Shown: piece after piece, positions 1 through 42,313 of the stretch
Position numbering within the stretch: the stretch's first letter is position 1
How the letters are laid out: each line of letters opens with the position of its first letter
Source of the DNA: Pseudomonas nicosulfuronedens
GTDB taxonomy: Bacteria > Pseudomonadota > Gammaproteobacteria > Pseudomonadales > Pseudomonadaceae
Length of the DNA stretch: 64,000 bases
Assembly: GCF_005877905.1 (NCBI RefSeq)
Contig: NZ_SWDV01000002.1
Location: 1-64,000, forward strand
Reading direction: 5' to 3'
Translations under genes and position numbers: made by a program
Notes under the pieces: model-generated
Databases searched by the model: none
The model's input: only the letters and a program-made list of their open reading frames with translations
What the model was told of the DNA's origin: nothing

Positions 1-123
1 GACAACGTGAAAATGGTTGTCACCCTGATCGCTCCGATCGCCATGGAAGATGGCCTGCGCTTCGCGATTCGCGAAGGCGGCCGTACCGTTGGCGCCGGCG
101 TGGTTGCCAAGATCATCGAGTAA
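1..123 (+). CDS. tuf: Elongation factor Tu, C-terminal end (partial)
   Basis: Only the last 40 codons lie in the window; the 5' end is outside. The frame reads [18 protein letters not shown], then [16 protein letters not shown], ending VVAKIIE before TAA. This is the characteristic domain III end of EF-Tu, the GTPase that brings aminoacyl-tRNA to the ribosome. A strong terminator follows at 141-169, so tuf does not read efficiently into rpsJ. Its position just upstream of the S10 operon fits the tufB copy of Pseudomonas (tufB assignment is inference). Confidence 0.97.
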
Positions 124-34977: not shown

Positions 34978-35724
34978 TCAGCGAGCTTTGCTTGCCAGGT
35001 CGCTGATCGGCCGATACTCGGCGTCAAGTTCTTGCGCCAGTTTCCGCGCCCGTCCGAGCCTGACGGCTCCCCCCTCGATATCCACCAGCAGCGTCGGGCA
35101 GTTCAACGGTTGCAGCTCCGGCCAGTCGCGCAGGCGGCCATCGGTCAGCACCAGCAGGCGCTGGCGCTCACCTGACTGCTGCCGCTGGCGTTTGTCCAGC
35201 CATTCGCGGGCTTGTTGCAGCGCCTCGATCAGCGGGGTACCGCCGCCCGCGCCGAGCTGCTCCAGCCACTCCTGCAATTGACTCGAGGCCTTCTGGCCCT
35301 GCCATAACCAGCGCGCTTGTGTGCCAGTGGCGTGTAGTAGGGCGAGGCGTGCGCGTTGCCGGTAGGCCTGCTCGAAGGTGTCGGCGAGCAGCCCCTTGGC
35401 CTGTGCGAGCGCGCCATGGCGGCGGGTGCTGGCGGAGGCATCGACTATCACCAGCCAGAGTTCGCCGGGCTTGCGACTGCGGGCGCGCAGCACGAGGTCG
35501 GCGCGGTGTTGCGGGCGGCCGTTGCGCAGGGTGGCGGGCCAGTCGATACGGCCGTGCGCGCCCGGCTGGCGGGCGCCGCTGCGGCCGCCGGCAAGCTGGC
35601 CGGGTCTGGGGTTGGCATCCGCGCCTGGGGCCGGGCGCGGGCGGATGCTCAGGGCTTTTTTGGCCAGCCCGTCAGTTGCCGGCGTTCGCCCATGGCCACG
35701 TTCTGGGCGGGCAGCTCGCCCCAC
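34978..35724 (-). CDS. VWA-domain chelatase subunit (ChlD/BchD- or CobT-like)
   Basis: About 248 residues if GTG 35724 is the start (GAAGG just before); this overlaps the end of the ChlI gene by 76 nt, and the frame is open further upstream, so the start is uncertain. The N-terminal third is Arg/Pro/Gly-rich; the C-terminal von Willebrand A domain has the metal-site motif LVIVDASAST and VLTDGRLRDW. With the adjacent ChlI-like ATPase it probably forms the motor that drives cobalt insertion by CobN, replacing CobS/CobT. Magnesium chelation is unlikely, as no bacteriochlorophyll genes are present. Confidence 0.78.
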   Translation of the reverse strand: MGRAARPERGHGRTPATDGLAKKALSIRPRPAPGADANPRPGQLAGGRSGARQPGAHGRIDWPATLRNGRPQHRADLVLRARSRKPGELWLVIVDASASTRRHGALAQAKGLLADTFEQAYRQRARLALLHATGTQARWLWQGQKASSQLQEWLEQLGAGGGTPLIEALQQAREWLDKRQRQQSGERQRLLVLTDGRLRDWPELQPLNCPTLLVDIEGGAVRLGRARKLAQELDAEYRPISDLASKAR

Positions 35725-36656
35725 TGGCCTTCGCCGTTCGAGGTGTTGGCGGGGGCCTCGGATTGGCTGGAAGAGGACTGCGGTGGCGTGCTTGGTTGGG
35801 GCGGTGTGTGACGACGGCGATGGGCGAGGGCGAAGTGCTCGACGGCATCGATGTCCTGCGCCTCGATAGCGTTCGCACCGCGCCATGCCGCATGAGCGCG
35901 GGCAGCGCGCAGCCAGACAAGGTCAGCGCGCAGGCCGTCTACGCCGGCGGCGTGGCAGCGCTGGGCGATGTCATTCAGCGCCACGTCATCCAGCGCAATC
36001 GACGCCAGCCGCTGGCGCGCATCGACACAGCGCTGTTGCAGCGCTTGCTGTGCGCCTTGCCACTGAATGAGGAACGCCTGCGGGTCGGCATCGAAAGCCA
36101 GCCGCCGGCGGACGATTTCGGCTCGCTCGGTCGGCGCGGGCGTACCTTCCAGTTGCACCTTGAGACCGAAGCGATCCAGCAGTTGCGGGCGCAGTTCGCC
36201 TTCTTCGGGGTTCATCGTGCCGATCAGTACGAAGCGCGCCGGATGGCTGTGGGACAGGCCGTCGCGCTCGATCAGGTTGACCCCGCTGGCGGCCACATCG
36301 AGCAGGAGGTCGACGAGGTGGTCGGGCAGCAGGTTCACTTCATCCACATAGAGCACGCCGCCGTGGGCATGCGCCAGCACGCCGGGGGAGAACTGCACGC
36401 GGCCTTCACCCAGCGCCGCATCCAGGTCGAGGGTACCGACAATGCGCTCCTCGCTGGCGCCCAGCGGCAGGGTGACGAAGCGCCCGCCATCCAGCAGGTC
36501 GGCCACGCCGCGCGCCAGGGTGGACTTGGCCATGCCGCGCGGCCCTTCGATCAGCACGCCGCCGATGGCCGGATCGATGGCCGCCAGGCACAGGGCCAGC
36601 TTCAGCTCATCGGCGCCAACGACGGCAGCCAGTGGGAAATGGGGAAGGGCGCTCAT
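35649..36656 (-). CDS. ChlI-like AAA+ ATPase of metal chelatase
   Basis: 335 residues from ATG 36656 (MSALPHFPLAAVVGADELKL). Walker A GPRGMAKST, Walker B GVLYVDEVNLLPD, and the sensor region RFVLIGTMNPEEGELRPQLL match ChlI/BchI and CobS-type ATPases. The C-terminus is a Ser/Pro/Gln-rich linker (PPQPSTPPQSSSSQ). It likely pairs with the VWA protein downstream and with CobN (38582-42313) to insert cobalt into hydrogenobyrinate a,c-diamide. Assignment to cobalt rather than magnesium is inference from context. Confidence 0.85.
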   Translation of the reverse strand: MSALPHFPLAAVVGADELKLALCLAAIDPAIGGVLIEGPRGMAKSTLARGVADLLDGGRFVTLPLGASEERIVGTLDLDAALGEGRVQFSPGVLAHAHGGVLYVDEVNLLPDHLVDLLLDVAASGVNLIERDGLSHSHPARFVLIGTMNPEEGELRPQLLDRFGLKVQLEGTPAPTERAEIVRRRLAFDADPQAFLIQWQGAQQALQQRCVDARQRLASIALDDVALNDIAQRCHAAGVDGLRADLVWLRAARAHAAWRGANAIEAQDIDAVEHFALAHRRRHTPPQPSTPPQSSSSQSEAPANTSNGEGQWGELPAQNVAMGERRQLTGWPKKP

Positions 36657-36746
36657 GGGGATTTCCTGCGGATTTCGTCCGTGCATGGTAGCGAACCGAG
36701 AGTAGGAGGTGCGACCAATGTCCATCAGAACGATAGAGCCAAGTCA

Positions 36747-36775
36747 TTGAACGATGCGTCGCGATGCAGTAACTT
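36747..36775 (+). promoter_or_regulatory. Promoter of the DAHP synthase leader
   Basis: TTGAAC (36747-36752), a 17-base spacer and TAACTT (36770-36775). Transcription from about 36782 would place the leader peptide ATG 18 nt into the mRNA. Confidence 0.72.
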
Positions 36776-36799
36776 GACTCCACTTCCACGGAGAACATC

Positions 36800-36934
36800 A
36801 TGCCGTCCAGCCTGTCCATCCAGTCCCTCGCCCGCCTCGGTGCCATCGGCTCCGTGGTTGCTCGCGCGCAGGTTCTGGCCGCGGCTGCCGGCTATTTCTT
36901 CTATGGGTATTGGTTTAGCCAAAGGCGCGCCTGA
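36800..36934 (+). CDS. Leader peptide for attenuation of DAHP synthase
   Basis: A 44-codon ORF with a GGAG site eight bases before the ATG. Near the end it reads AAGYFFYGYWFSQRRA: seven of eight consecutive codons encode Tyr, Phe or Trp (TAT TTC TTC TAT GGG TAT TGG TTT). Fifty bases after the stop comes an intrinsic terminator, with alternative pairings in between (see the attenuator feature). Ribosome stalling at the aromatic run when charged Phe, Tyr or Trp tRNAs are scarce would allow readthrough into the DAHP synthase gene, which makes the first committed intermediate of those amino acids. Confidence 0.82.
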   Translation: MPSSLSIQSLARLGAIGSVVARAQVLAAAAGYFFYGYWFSQRRA

Positions 36935-36943
36935 TACCCCACA

Positions 36944-37022
36944 GGCGCCCTAGCAAGCAGGGTCGCCAACCAGACAGTTTCCCAAAACCCCGGTCGGCAA
37001 CCCGACCGGGGTTTTTGTTTTT
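36944..37022 (+). promoter_or_regulatory. Transcription attenuator of the DAHP synthase gene
   Basis: Three mutually exclusive structures can be drawn. (1:2) GGCGCCCT (36944-36951) with AGGGTCGCC (36959-36967). (2:3) GGGTCGCCAACC (36960-36971) with GGTCGGCAACCC (36992-37003), 10 of 12 paired. (3:4) terminator AACCCCGGTCGG-caac-CCGACCGGGGTT (36986-37013), a perfect 12-bp stem followed by TTTGTTTTT. The 2:3 pairing uses the 5' arm of the terminator, as in classical trp/phe attenuators. Confidence 0.8.
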
Positions 37023-37082
37023 CCGGCCCACAAGGCCCAACGCATTGAACCGAGCCAACACGCTCAGACAGAGGATCGAGAC

Positions 37083-37187
37083 ATGACCGCCTACACCACT
37101 GATTACCGCTATTACCGCAACTCCGACTGGCGATTTAGCAGCGCGCTGCGTGCCACCCAACGAGCCTTGCCACGAACACTTAGATAG
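37083..37187 (+). CDS. Tyr-rich small ORF between the attenuator and DAHP synthase
   Basis: 34 codons, starting MTAYTTDYRYYRNSDWRF and ending ALPRTLR. A GAGGATCGAG Shine-Dalgarno-like tract precedes the ATG. Four Tyr, one Trp and one Phe fall within the first 18 codons. It ends 48 nt before the DAHP synthase start. It may be a second leader peptide or a coupled small gene; I see no second terminator after it, so a role in attenuation is unproven. Confidence 0.5.
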   Translation: MTAYTTDYRYYRNSDWRFSSALRATQRALPRTLR

Positions 37188-37235
37188 AGCGCCGAGCGCG
37201 GAAAGACCGCCGCGCCGGCCAAGGATGTCAGTCAG

Positions 37236-38333
37236 ATGAACGCCTCCACCTCCACCCTGATCCGCCCAGAACACGCAGCTACCGCCGAAGTCCTCGACCT
37301 GCCGCTGCCTTCCGCTCGCCGCCGCGAACAGCCGCTGCCGAGCCCCGCCGAACTGCGCCAGCGTCTGCCGCTGTCCGCCGCCATGGCCCACCGCGTCCGC
37401 GAAGGCCGAGAAGCGATTCGCGCCGTCCTCGATGGCCGTGACCCGCGCCTGCTGGTGGTGATCGGTCCCTGCTCGCTGCACGACCCCGTCTCCGCCCTCG
37501 AATACGCCGACCGCCTCGCCGAACTGGCGCCGCAGGTGAGCGACCAGCTGCTGCTGGTGATGCGCGCCTACGTCGAGAAACCGCGTACCACCATCGGCTG
37601 GAAAGGCCTGGTTTACGATCCGCAGCTGGACGGCACTGGCGACATGGCCGGCGGCCTCGAACTGTCGCGCCGGCTGATGCTGGGCATGCTCGAACGCGGC
37701 CTGCCGATCGCCACCGAACTGTTGCAACCGCTGGTGGCCGGCTACTTCGACGACCTGCTGGGCTGGGCCGCCATCGGCGCACGCACCAGCGAATCCCAGG
37801 TGCATCGCGAGATGGTCAGCGGCCTCGACCTGCCGGTGGGTTTCAAGAACGGCACCGACGGTAGCATCGGCATCGCCACCGACGCCATGCGCTCGGCAGC
37901 GCATCCGCACCAGCACTTCGGCATCGATGCGCAGGGCCGACCGTCGCTGGTACAGACCCAGGGCAACCCGGACACCCATCTGGTCCTGCGTGGCGGCCAC
38001 GCCGGTCCGAACTTCGACGCGGCCAACGTGCAGCAGATTCGCCAGGGCCTGGAGAAGCTCGGCCTCGAGCCGAACATCATGGTCGATTGCAGCCACGCCA
38101 ATAGCGGCAAGGACCCGCTGCGCCAACCGGCGGTACTGGACAGCGTGCTCGACCAGCGCCTGGCTGGCGACGCATCGCTGCGCGGCGTGATGCTGGAGAG
38201 CCACCTGTTCGACGGCTGCCAACCGCTGTCCGGTGAGCTGCGCTACGGTGTATCGATCACCGACGGCTGCCTGGGCTGGAGCGGCACCGAGGTGCTGTTG
38301 CTGAATGCGGCGCAGCGCCTGCGTCGGGGCTGA
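37236..38333 (+). CDS. 3-deoxy-7-phosphoheptulonate (DAHP) synthase, class I
   Basis: 365 residues, MNASTSTLIRPEHAATAEVL. The conserved LLVVIGPCSLHDPVSALEYA, KPRTTIGWKGLVYDP, GFKNGTDG and NIMVDCSHANSGKD blocks identify the AroF/AroG/AroH-type enzyme that condenses PEP with erythrose 4-phosphate at the head of the shikimate pathway. Feedback specificity cannot be read by eye. The gene lies behind an aromatic-rich leader peptide and attenuator, so transcription probably responds to aromatic amino acid supply. It is convergent with cobN. Pseudomonas genomes usually carry several DAHP synthase genes. Confidence 0.95.
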   Translation: MNASTSTLIRPEHAATAEVLDLPLPSARRREQPLPSPAELRQRLPLSAAMAHRVREGREAIRAVLDGRDPRLLVVIGPCSLHDPVSALEYADRLAELAPQVSDQLLLVMRAYVEKPRTTIGWKGLVYDPQLDGTGDMAGGLELSRRLMLGMLERGLPIATELLQPLVAGYFDDLLGWAAIGARTSESQVHREMVSGLDLPVGFKNGTDGSIGIATDAMRSAAHPHQHFGIDAQGRPSLVQTQGNPDTHLVLRGGHAGPNFDAANVQQIRQGLEKLGLEPNIMVDCSHANSGKDPLRQPAVLDSVLDQRLAGDASLRGVMLESHLFDGCQPLSGELRYGVSITDGCLGWSGTEVLLLNAAQRLRRG

Positions 38334-38581: not shown

Positions 38582-41500
38582 TCACTGTTCCTCGCTGTCC
38601 ACCAGCAGGTTCTCCAGCGTCTCCCGATAGTCCCCCGGCTCTTCCCACAACCCGCGCTGCTGCGCTTCCACCAGGCGTTCGGCGATGTCGCGCAGGGCTT
38701 CGGGGTTGTGCTGGCGGATGAACTCGCGGGTGTCGTCGTCCAGCAGGTAGGCGTCGGCCAGCAGGCGGTACTGGTGGTCGTCGACCAGTTCGCTGGTGGC
38801 GTCGAAGGCAAACAGGTAATCCACCGTGGCGGCCAGTTCGAAGGCGCCCTTGTAGCCGTGGCGCTTCATGCCGGCGATCCATTTCGGGTTCACCGCGCGC
38901 GAGCGCACCACGCGGCCCAGTTCTTCCTTGAGGGTGCGGACGCGCGGGTTGTCCGGCTGGCTGTGGTCGCCGTGGTAGCTGGCCAGCGCCTGGCCCTGGA
39001 TGACCTCGGCGGCGGCGAGCATGCCGCCCTGGAACTGGTAGTAGTCGTTGGAATCGAGGATGTCGTGCTCGCGGTTGTCCTGGTTGTGCAGCACCGCCTG
39101 CAGGCCGGACAGGCGCTGGGCGAAGCGCTCGCGCGCCGGGGTACCGTCGTCGCCGGCGCCGTAGGCGTAGCCGCCCCAGTTGAGGTAGGCCTCGGCGAGG
39201 TCGGCGCGGCTGTCCCACTGGCGTGATTCGATTACGCCCTGCACGCCGGCACCGTAAGCGCCGGGCTGTGCGCCGAAGATGCGCCAGCCTGCCTGGCGTC
39301 GGGCTTCGTCGACGTCCAGACCTTCGCTCAGCAGGCGCGATTGATCAGCACGCACGCGAGCCGCCAGCGGGTTCAGATCATCCGGCTCGTCCAGCGCGGC
39401 GACAGCCTGCACAGCGGCATCGAACAGGCGGATCAGGTTGGCGAAGGCATCGCGGAAGAAGCCCGAGACCCGCAGCGTCACGTCGACCCGCGGGCGGTCG
39501 AGCAGGGTGATCGGCAGGATCTCGAAGTCTTCCACGCGCTGGCTGCCGGCCTGCCACACCGGGCGCACGCCGAGCAGTGCCAGCGCCTGGGCGATGTCGT
39601 CGCCGCCGGTGCGCATGGTCGCGGTGCCCCACACCGACAGGCCGAGCTGGCGCAGGTGGTCACCGTGGTCCTGCAGGTGGCGCTCGAGCAGTCGGCTGGC
39701 CGACTGGAAGCCGAGGCGGAAGGCGGTGGGCGTGGGCAGGTTGCGCACGTCCACGGTGAAGAAGTTGCGCCCGGTGGGCAGCACATCGACCCGCCCGCGG
39801 CTGGGCGCACCGCTGGGGCCGGGCGGAACGAAGCGGCCGCCGAGGCCGGCGAGCAGGTGGCCGATTTCACTGGCGCCGCAGGCGTCGAGCGTCGGCGCGA
39901 TCTGCTGCTGAAGCTGCGCGAGCACCGCCGCGCTGGCGCTGCCGGGTGCGCTGACCGAGCCGTCGATCAAGCGCAGGGCGAACAGCTCCAGGCGTTCGCG
40001 GGTGTCGCCGTTGCTGCGCCAGGGTTCGTCGCTGACGGCGGTCAGCGAATCAGGGCGCGGACCTTCCCACGGCTCGGCGAAAGCGGCGTCCAGCGGGTCG
40101 CGGCCGAGCTTCAGGTCTTCGCTCAGCGCGCGCAGCAGGCTGGCGTTGCCGCCACGCCCATCGCCGCGCGGGATGCGCACCAGCGACAGCAACGTGTCGC
40201 GGCGCAACTCGCCCACGGGCGACTCGCCGAACACGTGCAGGCCGTCGCGAATCTGCGATTCCTTGAGGTCGCACAGGTAGGCGTCCAGCTGCGGCAGCCA
40301 GCTTTCCGGATCGTCACTCAACTGCAAGCCCAGCTCGCGGTCCAGCGCGGTCTCACGCACCAGCGTGAGGATGTCGCCACGCAGTTCGCTGGCGCGGCGC
40401 GGGTCGAGCAGCGAGGCGTCGTAGTACTCGTCGGCCAGGCGTTCGAGGTCGCGCAGCGGGCCGTAGTTTTCCGCGCGGGTCAGCGGCGGCATCAGGTGGT
40501 CGATGATCACCGCCTGGGCGCGGCGCTTGGCCTGTGCGCCTTCGCCGGGGTCGTTGACGATGAACGGGTAGAGGTTGGGTAGCGGGCCGAGGATCGCGTC
40601 GGGCCAGCATTCCTCCGAGAGCCCGACGCCCTTGCCGGGCAGCCATTCGAGGTTGCCGTGCTTGCCGACGTGGATTACCGCATCGGCGCCGAACACTTCG
40701 CGCAGCCAGAAGTAGAAGGCGAGGTAGCCGTGGGGCGGCACCAATGACGGATCGTGGTAGATCGCTGCTGCGTCGAGCTGGTAGCCACGTGCTGGCTGGA
40801 TGCCGACAAAGCCCAGGCCGAAGCGCAGGCCAGCGACCATCATCCGGCCGCTGCGGAACATCGGATCCTGTTGCGGCTCTCCCCAGCGCTCGCGCACGGC
40901 TTGCTGGTTGGCTTCGGGCAGGCGCGCGAAGCAGGCGAGGTAGTCGTCCAGCGCCAGGCTCTGCGCGCAGGGGCGCAGGTCGAGGCTGTCGAGGTCGTTG
41001 CTGACACCACCGAGCAGTTGCTGGATCAGCGCCGTGCCGGAAGCGGGCAGGCCGGCGACCGGATAACCCTGGGCCTCCAGCGCACGCAGGATGTTCAAGG
41101 CGGCGGCCGGCGTGTCGAGGCCGACGCCATTGCCGATGCGCCCATCGCGGGTTGGATAGTTGGCGAGGATCAGCGCCACGCGCTTGTCGGCGTTGGCCTT
41201 GCGCGCCAGCAGCATCCAGCGCCGCGCCAGTTCGGCGACGAAGTCCATGCCCGGCCGGTGCGGCAGGTAGCAGACCACGTCGCTCTGGCTGCGCTCGCTG
41301 CGCCAGGCCAGGCCCTTGAAGCTGATTGGCCGGGTGATGAGGCGGCCGTCCAGCTCCGGCAGTGCGATGTGCATGGCCAGATCGCGCGGGCCGAGGCCTT
41401 GCGGGTTGGCGCGCCAGAGGTCGAGGTTGTCCAGCGAGCAGATCGCTTGCAGCACCGGCACGTCGCGGCGGAACGGCCGGTCCTGTGGCGCCTCCGGGTT

Positions 41501-42313
41501 CGACTGGGCGAAACCGGTGGTGTTGATGATCAGTTCGGCGTCGGCGCTATCGAGCAGGTTTTCCACTGCTTCTAGGCAGGCGGCTTCCTTGAGGCTGGCC
41601 ACGGCAATGGGCAGCGGGTTGATGCCCTGGGCCAGCAGGCGATCGCAGAAGGTGTCGATGAAGCCGGTGTTCGCCGCTTGCAGATGCGTGCGGTAGAACA
41701 GCAGCGCGGCGACTGGGCACTCGGGATTCCAGTCGGCCTGCCAGCGGGCGAGGTCGCAGCGGCCGGTCTGTGGATGGTAGAGCGCGACGCGGGGCAGCGT
41801 TTGCGGCTCGCTCCACGGATAGTCGCGTTGCAGATGGCGCGTGGCGAGGCTGGCGAAGAGGTGCCGGGCGTTGTCCATCCCGCCCTGGCGCAGGTACTGC
41901 CAGAGGCGCTCTGCATCCTGCGGCGGGACGCTGCACAGCGCGCTGAGTTCGGGGTCGGGCTTGTCGTCGCCGGGTACCGCGATCAGCGTGACGCCGCGCT
42001 CGGCCAACGCCACCAACTGCTCCATGCCGTAGCGCCAGTAGCCGATGCCGCCGTGTACCGAGATCAGGATGACCTTGGCGTGCTGCAGCACTTCGTCGAC
42101 GTAAAGGTCCACCGAGGCGTGGTTCTGCAGCTGCATCGGGTTGGCCAGCCGCAGGCTCGGGTAGTCCTCCGGCAGCTCGCGGGCGGCCTCGGCGAGCAGT
42201 GCCAGGTGCGAGTCGCCGCTGCAGAGAATCACCAGATCGGCGGGCGTCTGGGCCAGGTGGGCGATGCCGTCGTCGGGGACGAAACCGCCGGGTTGGGTGC
42301 GCAGCAGGTGCAT
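38582..42313 (-). CDS. cobN: Cobaltochelatase subunit CobN
   Basis: 1243 residues, MHLLRTQPGGFVPDDGIAHL, the usual very large size of CobN. Family blocks include HVGKHGNLEWLPGKGVGLS, the glycine-rich FVPPGPSGAPSRGRVDVLPT and a C-terminal DIAERLVEAQQRGLWE. CobN is the catalytic porphyrin-binding subunit that inserts Co2+ into hydrogenobyrinic acid a,c-diamide in the aerobic pathway, powered by CobS/CobT or here probably the ChlI/VWA pair at 34978-36656. It is read from the cobW side, so it should be under the same cobalamin riboswitch (43644-43812). Confidence 0.95.
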   Translation of the reverse strand: MHLLRTQPGGFVPDDGIAHLAQTPADLVILCSGDSHLALLAEAARELPEDYPSLRLANPMQLQNHASVDLYVDEVLQHAKVILISVHGGIGYWRYGMEQLVALAERGVTLIAVPGDDKPDPELSALCSVPPQDAERLWQYLRQGGMDNARHLFASLATRHLQRDYPWSEPQTLPRVALYHPQTGRCDLARWQADWNPECPVAALLFYRTHLQAANTGFIDTFCDRLLAQGINPLPIAVASLKEAACLEAVENLLDSADAELIINTTGFAQSNPEAPQDRPFRRDVPVLQAICSLDNLDLWRANPQGLGPRDLAMHIALPELDGRLITRPISFKGLAWRSERSQSDVVCYLPHRPGMDFVAELARRWMLLARKANADKRVALILANYPTRDGRIGNGVGLDTPAAALNILRALEAQGYPVAGLPASGTALIQQLLGGVSNDLDSLDLRPCAQSLALDDYLACFARLPEANQQAVRERWGEPQQDPMFRSGRMMVAGLRFGLGFVGIQPARGYQLDAAAIYHDPSLVPPHGYLAFYFWLREVFGADAVIHVGKHGNLEWLPGKGVGLSEECWPDAILGPLPNLYPFIVNDPGEGAQAKRRAQAVIIDHLMPPLTRAENYGPLRDLERLADEYYDASLLDPRRASELRGDILTLVRETALDRELGLQLSDDPESWLPQLDAYLCDLKESQIRDGLHVFGESPVGELRRDTLLSLVRIPRGDGRGGNASLLRALSEDLKLGRDPLDAAFAEPWEGPRPDSLTAVSDEPWRSNGDTRERLELFALRLIDGSVSAPGSASAAVLAQLQQQIAPTLDACGASEIGHLLAGLGGRFVPPGPSGAPSRGRVDVLPTGRNFFTVDVRNLPTPTAFRLGFQSASRLLERHLQDHGDHLRQLGLSVWGTATMRTGGDDIAQALALLGVRPVWQAGSQRVEDFEILPITLLDRPRVDVTLRVSGFFRDAFANLIRLFDAAVQAVAALDEPDDLNPLAARVRADQSRLLSEGLDVDEARRQAGWRIFGAQPGAYGAGVQGVIESRQWDSRADLAEAYLNWGGYAYGAGDDGTPARERFAQRLSGLQAVLHNQDNREHDILDSNDYYQFQGGMLAAAEVIQGQALASYHGDHSQPDNPRVRTLKEELGRVVRSRAVNPKWIAGMKRHGYKGAFELAATVDYLFAFDATSELVDDHQYRLLADAYLLDDDTREFIRQHNPEALRDIAERLVEAQQRGLWEEPGDYRETLENLLVDSEEQ

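Follow-up and report, generated by a model that had tools for sequence, protein, structure and literature searches.

Organization of the DAHP synthase leader

We analysed the first 64,000 nucleotides (nt) of contig NZ_SWDV01000002.1 of Pseudomonas nicosulfuronedens (GCF_005877905.1), here called the window, and focused on a putative attenuator in front of a gene for 3-deoxy-D-arabino-heptulosonate 7-phosphate (DAHP) synthase. The gene, at 37236..38333 on the plus strand, starts with ATG at 37236, encodes 365 amino acids and has a Shine-Dalgarno (SD) sequence, AAGGA, at 37221..37225. It was recognized by profile matches (NF009395, 504 bits; TIGR00034 aroFGH, 431 bits). The best matches among solved structures, 6agm and 6agl, carry Tyr-sensitive labels, and we refer to the enzyme as type Ialpha, a label of our own. 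All leader features described below lie on the same strand. An earlier note on this DNA, made from the sequence alone, had placed an attenuator at 36747-37236; this region ends at the ATG of the DAHP synthase gene. The note had overlooked a further aromatic leader open reading frame (ORF) within the region, at 37083-37187.

The first leader ORF (ORF 1, 36800..36934) starts with ATG at 36800, is preceded by the SD sequence GGAG at 36790..36793, spans 44 codons and ends with GYFFYGYWFSQRRA. Direct reading confirmed the ORF and its ribosome site as the note had given them, and the ORF is found in homologues. The control codons, codons 32-39 (36893..36916), read Y F F Y G Y W F. Seven of these eight are Tyr, Phe or Trp codons, as had been claimed, and the run is unique: apart from YFFYGYWF and its two one-codon shifts, no eight successive codons in any of the six reading frames of the 64 kb include at least six aromatic ones.

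Upstream of ORF 1 lies a promoter-like box, TTGAAC-17-TAACTT (36747..36775; TTGAAC at 36747-36752, TAACTT at 36770-36775). The sequence proposed as the promoter was confirmed by direct reading, and a similar box, TTGNNN-16..19-TANSNT, is located 5' of the aromatic run in 76/83 related loci (chance rate not estimated), though the box is weak, with 7/12 consensus matches by hand count. The sigma-70 scan did not report TTGAAC-17-TAACTT at 36747-36775; the site that it reported was TTGACT-16-CATCAT at 36774-36801.

An intrinsic terminator with its U tract (36984..37022) was located downstream of ORF 1 by a terminator scan and by homologue pairing. It consists of AAAACCCCGGTCGG-CAAC-CCGACCGGGGTTTT followed by TGTTTTT, with 14 pairs in the scan. 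Four terminator-like sites were found within 1 kb, where 0.6 were expected; the remaining three have only 5-6 pairs, and one of them sits within the main terminator hairpin. Positions 36892..37012 match the Rfam family RF00627, 'P15 Pseudomonas sRNA', at 105.2 bits against a gathering cutoff of 70. Since the match starts in ORF 1 and stops in the terminator, P15 looks, from its sequence, like the 3' part of the aromatic attenuator.

Between the terminator and the gene lies the second leader ORF (ORF 2, 37083..37187), found in the ORF list and in homologues. It has 34 codons, MTAYTTDYRYYRNSDWRFSSALRATQRALPRTLR, with an SD sequence GAGGA at 37071..37075 and the stop codon TAG at 37185-37187. Within it, TGGCGATTTAGC (Trp-Arg-Phe-Ser) occupies 37128..37139, a position established by genome motif counts.

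Conservation of the aromatic codon run

ORF 1 was compared among 83 Pseudomonadaceae loci with P15. Codons for Phe, Tyr and Trp were all present in its homologue in 83/83 loci, as judged on the nine codons up to and including the Phe codon that precedes Ser, and the leaders have 5-7 aromatic codons per eight. TGGTTTAGC was found in 83/83 and GGGTATTGGTTTAGC in 77/83 of these ORFs. An incomplete P15 match on a short contig (L082, DAHP synthase 71% identical) is outside the 83; L026, where a terminator-like match precedes a gene read as rpsL, was dropped, and L086 is a repeat of the window.

For alignment A1 we used 51 of 78 distinct sequences. The Tyr37, Trp38 and Phe39 codons are retained in all 51. 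An aromatic residue is specified by codons 34, 35, 37, 38 and 39 in 98-100% of them, by codon 33 in 84% and by codon 32 in 31%. The ORF 1 stop lies 8 codons past the start of the Tyr37 codon in 79/83 loci. An early stop, SH*, three codons sooner, was seen in L054 and L055 with the remainder of the leader retained, and also in L140, L147, L148, L174, L181, L196 and L202 of the P. putida group; these leaders are natural tests of stop-codon placement.

The DAHP synthase downstream is 59-100% identical to that of the window (median 71%, 83/83 loci). A threshold of five aromatic codons out of eight, which all 83 P15 leaders reach, identified no aromatic leader at any of 32 scanned P15-free DAHP synthase loci, including the second copy in the genome of the window (L102). 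These 32 comprise 24 of 30 loci, which carry the motif needed for the scan, and 8 earlier loci. Judged by sequence, the ORF 1 leader and this DAHP synthase paralogue travel together.

Competing helices in the leader RNA

The leader RNA (36900-37023) folds at −55.6 kcal/mol compared with −36.4 kcal/mol for dinucleotide shuffles (z −5.4). Its segments are A (36905-36910), 1 (36927-36933), B (36934-36939), 2 (36942-36951), 3 (36959-36971), 4 (36984-37003) and 5 (37002-37015). Helix A:B (36905..36939), present in the minimum-free-energy (MFE) structure, pairs GGGTAT with ATACCC (36934-36939) and encloses the end of ORF 1. Helix 1:2 (36927..36948) pairs GCGCCTG (36927-36933) with CAGGCGC (36942-36948), and helix 2:3 (36944..36967) pairs GGCGCCCT with AGGGTCGCC; both were established by homologue pairing. 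Helix 3:4, the antiterminator (36960..37003), pairs 36960-36971 with 36992-37003 according to homologue pairing and the ribosome scan described below. Helix 4:5 is the intrinsic terminator. The RNA is predicted to form a relay like that of the his attenuator, in which A:B, 2:3 and 4:5 terminate transcription and 1:2 and 3:4 prevent termination.

Of the hairpins described in the earlier note, the terminator and the antiterminator, our helix 3:4, stand. The pairing at 36944-36967 that it had labelled 1:2 is helix 2:3, the second helix of a longer relay; A:B (36905-36910/36934-36939) and 1:2 (36927-36933/36942-36948) had been missed.

Among the 51 homologues the terminating helices are paired in 96.4% of cells and the antiterminating helices in 90.3%, which, together with the aromatic run, bears out the conservation expected of an attenuator. 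A:B pairs in 95.4% of cells, with one-sided wobble changes only, and 2:3 in 94.1%. Pairs changed on both sides were found in 4:5 (two pairs; 98.2% of cells paired), 1:2 (one pair; 86.8%) and 3:4 (one pair; 92.7%). In cells paired and in covariation score, both helix sets exceed every slid version and all 500 shuffles. From the 78 sequences, RNAalifold alone returned the terminator together with portions of the helices close to A:B and 2:3.

Ribosome position and the proposed mechanism

The nascent RNA of the 51 homologues was folded with a ribosome footprint at each codon. The mean probability of helix 3:4 was 0.84-0.92 with the A-site on codons 33-40. It was 0.41-0.63 at codons 21-32 and 0.55 at codon 41, and between codon 42 and the stop it was 0.32-0.35 if one leader of greater length is disregarded. 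The predicted antitermination window, codons 33-40, nearly coincides with the aromatic run, codons 32-39, and supports the attenuator reading of the earlier note. In the window, codons 33-39 read F F Y G Y W F, so that all three amino acids fall within it. When segment 3 has just emerged, A:B has a probability of 0.74 in ribosome-free RNA; a ribosome placed on Tyr37-Phe39 gives 0.64-0.87 for 1:2, and one at the stop gives 0.89-0.91 for 2:3.

Under replete conditions, the ribosome would reach the ORF 1 stop, which overlaps segment 1, so that 1:2 could not form; segment 2 would then pair with 3, and terminator 4:5 would form. If the ribosome is released, or translation does not take place, A:B and 2:3, which are preferred early in most homologues, would lead to termination too. 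On aromatic starvation, a ribosome held on codons 33-39 would cover A and leave segment 1 free, and 1:2 would form. Segment 3, thus freed, would pair with 4, the terminator would be blocked and transcription would continue. The polymerase would then copy the independently started ORF 2, which is Tyr-rich and then has Trp-CGA-Phe, before it reaches the ribosome site of the DAHP synthase gene.

The leader has the parts of an attenuator: a short ORF with its own SD sequence, on the strand of the biosynthetic gene and upstream of it; a series of codons specifying the amino acids that the pathway produces; an intrinsic terminator ahead of the structural gene; and, by folding alone, mutually exclusive terminator and antiterminator set by ribosome position, less cleanly so for the sequence of the window itself. 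We conclude that it is very probably a ribosome-mediated transcription attenuator of DAHP synthase which jointly senses the availability of Phe-, Tyr- and Trp-tRNA, with ORF 2 as a further leader. Transcription and translation of the leader and the sensing of tRNA are what we infer from the sequences, their conservation and the predicted folds of the homologues.

Several observations weigh against this conclusion. Both-sided covariation is modest, and A:B and 2:3 are without any pair changed on both sides. The counts of such pairs were equalled in 69 (terminating) and 478 (antiterminating) of 500 shuffles, and those of further pair types in 499 and 248, respectively. Pairs changed on both sides are few because the sequence is so conserved. 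Columns 88-128 of helix 3:4 are unpaired in 26/51 sequences. With segment 4 out and no ribosome, 3:4 (0.53) and 2:3 (0.39) are near even, so untranslated RNA may terminate poorly. The ribosome-free nascent RNA of the window itself prefers 1:2 and 3:4 after segment 4 has emerged, and with the ribosome at the stop 3:4 reaches 0.66-0.71 compared with 0.41-0.48 for 2:3. Masked folding of this kind leaves out kinetics.

Distribution of P15

The genome of the window has one P15 match. P15 was found in 25/25 genomes of the genus and in 244/298 genomes of the family, representing 14/19 genera, with 239 above the cutoff; there were zero matches in 14 control genomes. We compared 15 of the 54 P15-negative family genomes, and in 14 of them the best DAHP synthase was merely 48-53% identical. 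The fifteenth, G059, assembled in 310 contigs, has an additional truncated match of 61% where a contig ends, which may be a fragmented orthologue.

A model built from the 51 homologues gave matches in 56/244 genomes of the order at E <= 0.001, many of them weak. The matches L129-L131 were without DAHP synthase and were dropped. Strong matches outside Pseudomonadaceae came from two families, f43 (L113-L119) and f36 (L120-L128), the latter being, as we guess, Halomonadaceae. All 16 of these loci have a DAHP synthase 56-65% identical to that of the window. Judged on the leader peptide, the f43 leader L119 has its twin in Alcanivorax sp. DP30 (L182).

Scanning of GTDB species genomes for GGTATTGGTTTAGCCRC gave at least 119 stretches. 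Among the matches listed, 80 were examined and 50 had the DAHP synthase motif downstream; these came from Pseudomonas, Stutzerimonas, Halopseudomonas, Alcanivorax, Halotalea and some metagenome bins, and TGGCGATTT was found in between in 48 of the 50, both exceptions being Alcanivorax. Four of the other 30 (L140, L167, L175, L180) are leaders that lie close to where the retrieved sequence ends, and the remaining matches look like chance. Stretches beyond these 80 also entered the comparisons of ORF 2 given below.

The 17-base GGTATTGGTTTAGCCRC was also seen in Pelagibacteraceae, SAR116 and another alphaproteobacterial genome (L134, L138, L141, L176, L179, L184, L190, L191). No DAHP synthase motif was found downstream at these eight loci, and ARAGORN found no tRNA in the five of them that it searched; the recurrence is perhaps due to chance. 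At the f7 loci L132 and L133, a different aromatic leader (YWYFAEYFFGYYFSQ / YWCSSEFFFGYYFSQ) and a terminator were observed ahead of a DAHP synthase 49% identical to that of the window, and ORF 2 was not seen at these two loci. The f7 leaders raise the possibility that attenuation of the DAHP synthase step extends beyond P15.

The second leader ORF

A Trp-Arg-Phe/Tyr ORF lies between the terminator and the gene in 82/83 family loci; in the other, L075, Gly replaces Trp in the same frame (GGG for TGG). The Trp-CGA-Phe codons are present as TGGCGATTT in 80/83 loci, the exceptions being L069 with a Tyr codon for Phe, L070 with synonymous CGC, and L075. TGGCGATTT was also found in 8/9 f36 and 2/7 f43 loci. 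The 12-base TGGCGATTTAGC has exactly one copy per genome in 25/25 genus genomes, always at ORF 2, and its reversed control occurred once across the 25. A regulon sharing TGGCGATTTAGC was rejected, as none of these genomes has a second copy.

Other properties of ORF 2 were taken from 160 distinct pattern matches, which include a few non-homologues (stops after 3, 73 and 251 codons). Tyr makes up 27% of the residues ahead of Trp (median 4) compared with 0.2% past Phe; its codons are TAC in 407 cases and TAT in 172. An SD-like motif precedes 158 of the ORFs, in the form GAGGA in 114. The stop is TAG in 139/160; ahead of it, CGA ACA and then AGA or CAG are frequent as the final codons. The entropy of the tail at the three codon positions was 1.04/1.08/1.10 in 25 sequences, 0.88/1.03/0.99 in 29 and 0.35/0.45/0.52 in 74. 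Near-equal values suggest that the tail is constrained as RNA, if at all, and disfavour constraint on the peptide as in nascent-chain arrest.

ORF 2 exists in a short and a long form. In 61 relatives with the long form, pairing holds in 99.2% of cells for two interleaved helices (columns 18-25/41-48 and 34-39/58-63), and both-sided changes were counted in six cells compared with 0.4 in shuffles. The pattern by which these 61 were selected from 63 distinct sequences itself sets a large part of the 34-39 segment and the start of 41-48; the test omitted the inner pair 21-45, which is mismatched in most cases. Their alignment, A2, covers L002, L027-L056, L081, L110, L112, L120-L127 and L145-L252, the ranges being incomplete; L121 and L126 are outside the selection pattern. 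The helices begin 8 nt past the Phe codon of Trp-CGA-Phe, and the order of the segments is that of a candidate H-type pseudoknot whose predicted loops measure 8, 1 and 9 nt. The long form is common to Pseudomonas and f36. By eye, the ORF 2 of the window is of the short form and has no pseudoknot segments.

We asked how a ribosome on ORF 2 would alter the predicted accessibility of the ribosome site of DAHP synthase. A footprint reaching or covering TGGCGA raised it by 0.08-0.09 on average over 45 short forms, and 53-58% of these forms gained more than 0.05. Counting against such an effect, the mean change in 31 long forms was less than 0.02 as far as codon +13 and less than 0.04 after it, and the gain was zero for the sequence of the window. 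As a control, the masked part was mononucleotide-shuffled 25 times at each of 22 loci; the gain was 0.10 compared with 0.04 in shuffled masks and was larger in 14/22 loci. Release of the DAHP synthase site by a stalled ORF 2 ribosome is unproven; it would apply to few long forms and does not appear in the window sequence.

Two further ideas were set aside. Frameshifting at TGG CGA TTT AGC was suggested by the 8-nt spacing to the pseudoknot, and by reasoning −1 and +1 slippage would re-pair poorly. Pairing of segment 3 (GGGTCGCCA) with TGGCGATTT of ORF 2 would give nine pairs in the window, three of them G-U by hand count; segment 3 varies among relatives and the ORF 2 motif hardly does, so covariation does not support it.

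It is possible, though we would not call it probable, that, at the entry to the aromatic amino acid pathway of Pseudomonas and its relatives, Phe, Tyr and Trp are each read at two serial checkpoints of a single mRNA: the P15 terminator relay, and then a stall at the near-invariant Trp-CGA-Phe in ORF 2, in the long form 8 nt before the pseudoknot, which would set the translation or survival of the DAHP synthase mRNA. With low confidence, we favour for ORF 2 the role of a further aromatic checkpoint, one that affects translation or the fate of the mRNA and not the first terminator; the direction of its effect is likewise our conjecture.

ORF 2 might instead be no sensor, and serve to hold a ribosome near RNA polymerase or to couple translation to the DAHP synthase gene, a possibility that we regard as serious if somewhat doubtful. 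Its position agrees with coupling: the ORF ends 15-49 nt before the DAHP synthase start, as chosen by script, in 77 loci (the starts of L064-L066, the nearest ones, may be wrong), and in f36 L120, L124 and L125 its stop overlaps the gene start or lies within 3 nt of it. Mere coupling would, however, require neither the bias of Tyr to the part ahead of Trp, nor the Trp-CGA-Phe codons in 80/83 loci, nor the change of the sole altered Phe codon (L069) to Tyr, and these features count against it.

Surroundings of the leader

A GC-rich hairpin at 37191..37219, from the ORF 2 stop to the SD sequence of the DAHP synthase gene, is present in the MFE structure; it is weak, as the entire stretch folds at z −0.02. 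By eye a hairpin recurs at this place among relatives and is absent in L083-L085. The minus-strand neighbours at 34978-36725 and 38582-42313 are cobaltochelatase-type ORFs (ChlI/ChlD-like) and cobN, and the DAHP synthase unit is placed between them on the opposite strand.

Discussion

The enteric his operon attenuator has six alternately pairing segments, with A:B, C:D and E:F opposed to B:C and D:E. The relay in the window shares this logic of six-segment alternate pairing, whereas the his attenuator senses a single amino acid, serves the histidine operon and has one leader ORF. Control codons, stop placement, terminator and antiterminator are also shared with the trp and pheA attenuators, which differ in reading one amino acid each, in having fewer segments and in controlling terminal-branch genes instead of the common first step. 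Both are mentioned in the available part of PMC11802643.

The closest precedent is aroR-aroF of Corynebacterium glutamicum, where, according to the available parts of PMC4046766 and PMC11802643, an aromatic leader attenuates a DAHP synthase gene. As in the window, a leader with an aromatic run precedes DAHP synthase and acts by ribosome-mediated transcription attenuation. It differs in having only Phe-Tyr-Phe and in belonging to an unrelated phylum, and the parts of these papers available to us mention no Trp codon or second leader ORF. The earlier note had called control of a DAHP synthase by a mixed Phe/Tyr/Trp leader less familiar; this precedent and the Rfam family P15 were unknown to its author. 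Given aroR-aroF, leader attenuation of DAHP synthase is already known in kind and the system in the window is a variant of it. In E. coli the DAHP synthase genes are under the TyrR and TrpR repressors (PMC11802643, available part). Two leader peptides in series before one gene are described for ermB, with ermBL and ermBL2, in the available part of PMC8274638; that system is drug-induced and translational and does not sense amino acids.

Among the papers listed by searches of the open-licence literature of PubMed Central, none dealt with a leader-peptide attenuator or a second leader ORF of a Pseudomonas DAHP synthase gene. We take PA1750 to be the P. aeruginosa counterpart of the gene. The main text of a 3'-end mapping study of P. 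aeruginosa (PMC8297930) contains no 'PA1750', 'P15' or 'leader peptide', and P15 was not found in PMC8545117, PMC8395346 and PMC6700203, supplements excluded.

The leader may be an attenuator that in practice responds to just one of the three amino acids, as in C. glutamicum, where aroR has Phe-Tyr-Phe and responds to Phe, the availability of Tyr reportedly being irrelevant (PMC11802643, available part). We consider this unlikely, though by no means negligible, as all three codon types lie within the predicted antitermination window, codons 33-39, and the Tyr37, Trp38 and Phe39 codons are retained in 51/51 sequences.

A trans-acting small RNA (sRNA) with an incidental leader ORF is very improbable. 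Rfam gives the type 'Gene' and the family name 'Pseudomonas sRNA P15', and PMC2375449 counts P15 among the sRNAs that Livny et al. detected. P15 is the same element as ours, but filed as an sRNA gene; its model spans just the end of the leader ORF, and the downstream gene is outside the model. Against a trans-acting role, the match begins in the leader ORF and ends in the terminator, the same DAHP synthase follows in 83/83 loci, and in 14/15 tested P15-free genomes the enzyme is just 48-53% identical. The released attenuator RNA or the leader peptide may have an extra role in trans, by analogy with Sinorhizobium meliloti peTrpL, for which such a role is claimed in the available part of PMC7298713. 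A riboswitch, proposed by Livny et al. in 2008 from conserved synteny with the Listeria thiamine pyrophosphate riboswitch (PMC2527527, available part), is barely credible, as an aromatic-run leader ORF overlaps P15 in 83/83 loci, the predicted fold switches with ribosome position, and no riboswitch family is among the matches listed for 36000-38000 of the window and for six relatives.

DAHP synthase gates the flow of carbon into all aromatic compounds. In these bacteria the first aromatic step seems to be controlled by translation itself, with the three end products read at once. P15, which Rfam catalogues as an sRNA gene and for which a riboswitch role was once proposed, would thereby gain a mechanistic identity. 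ORF 2, with its conserved 12-base motif kept in other families, is a candidate regulatory element that can be tested directly.

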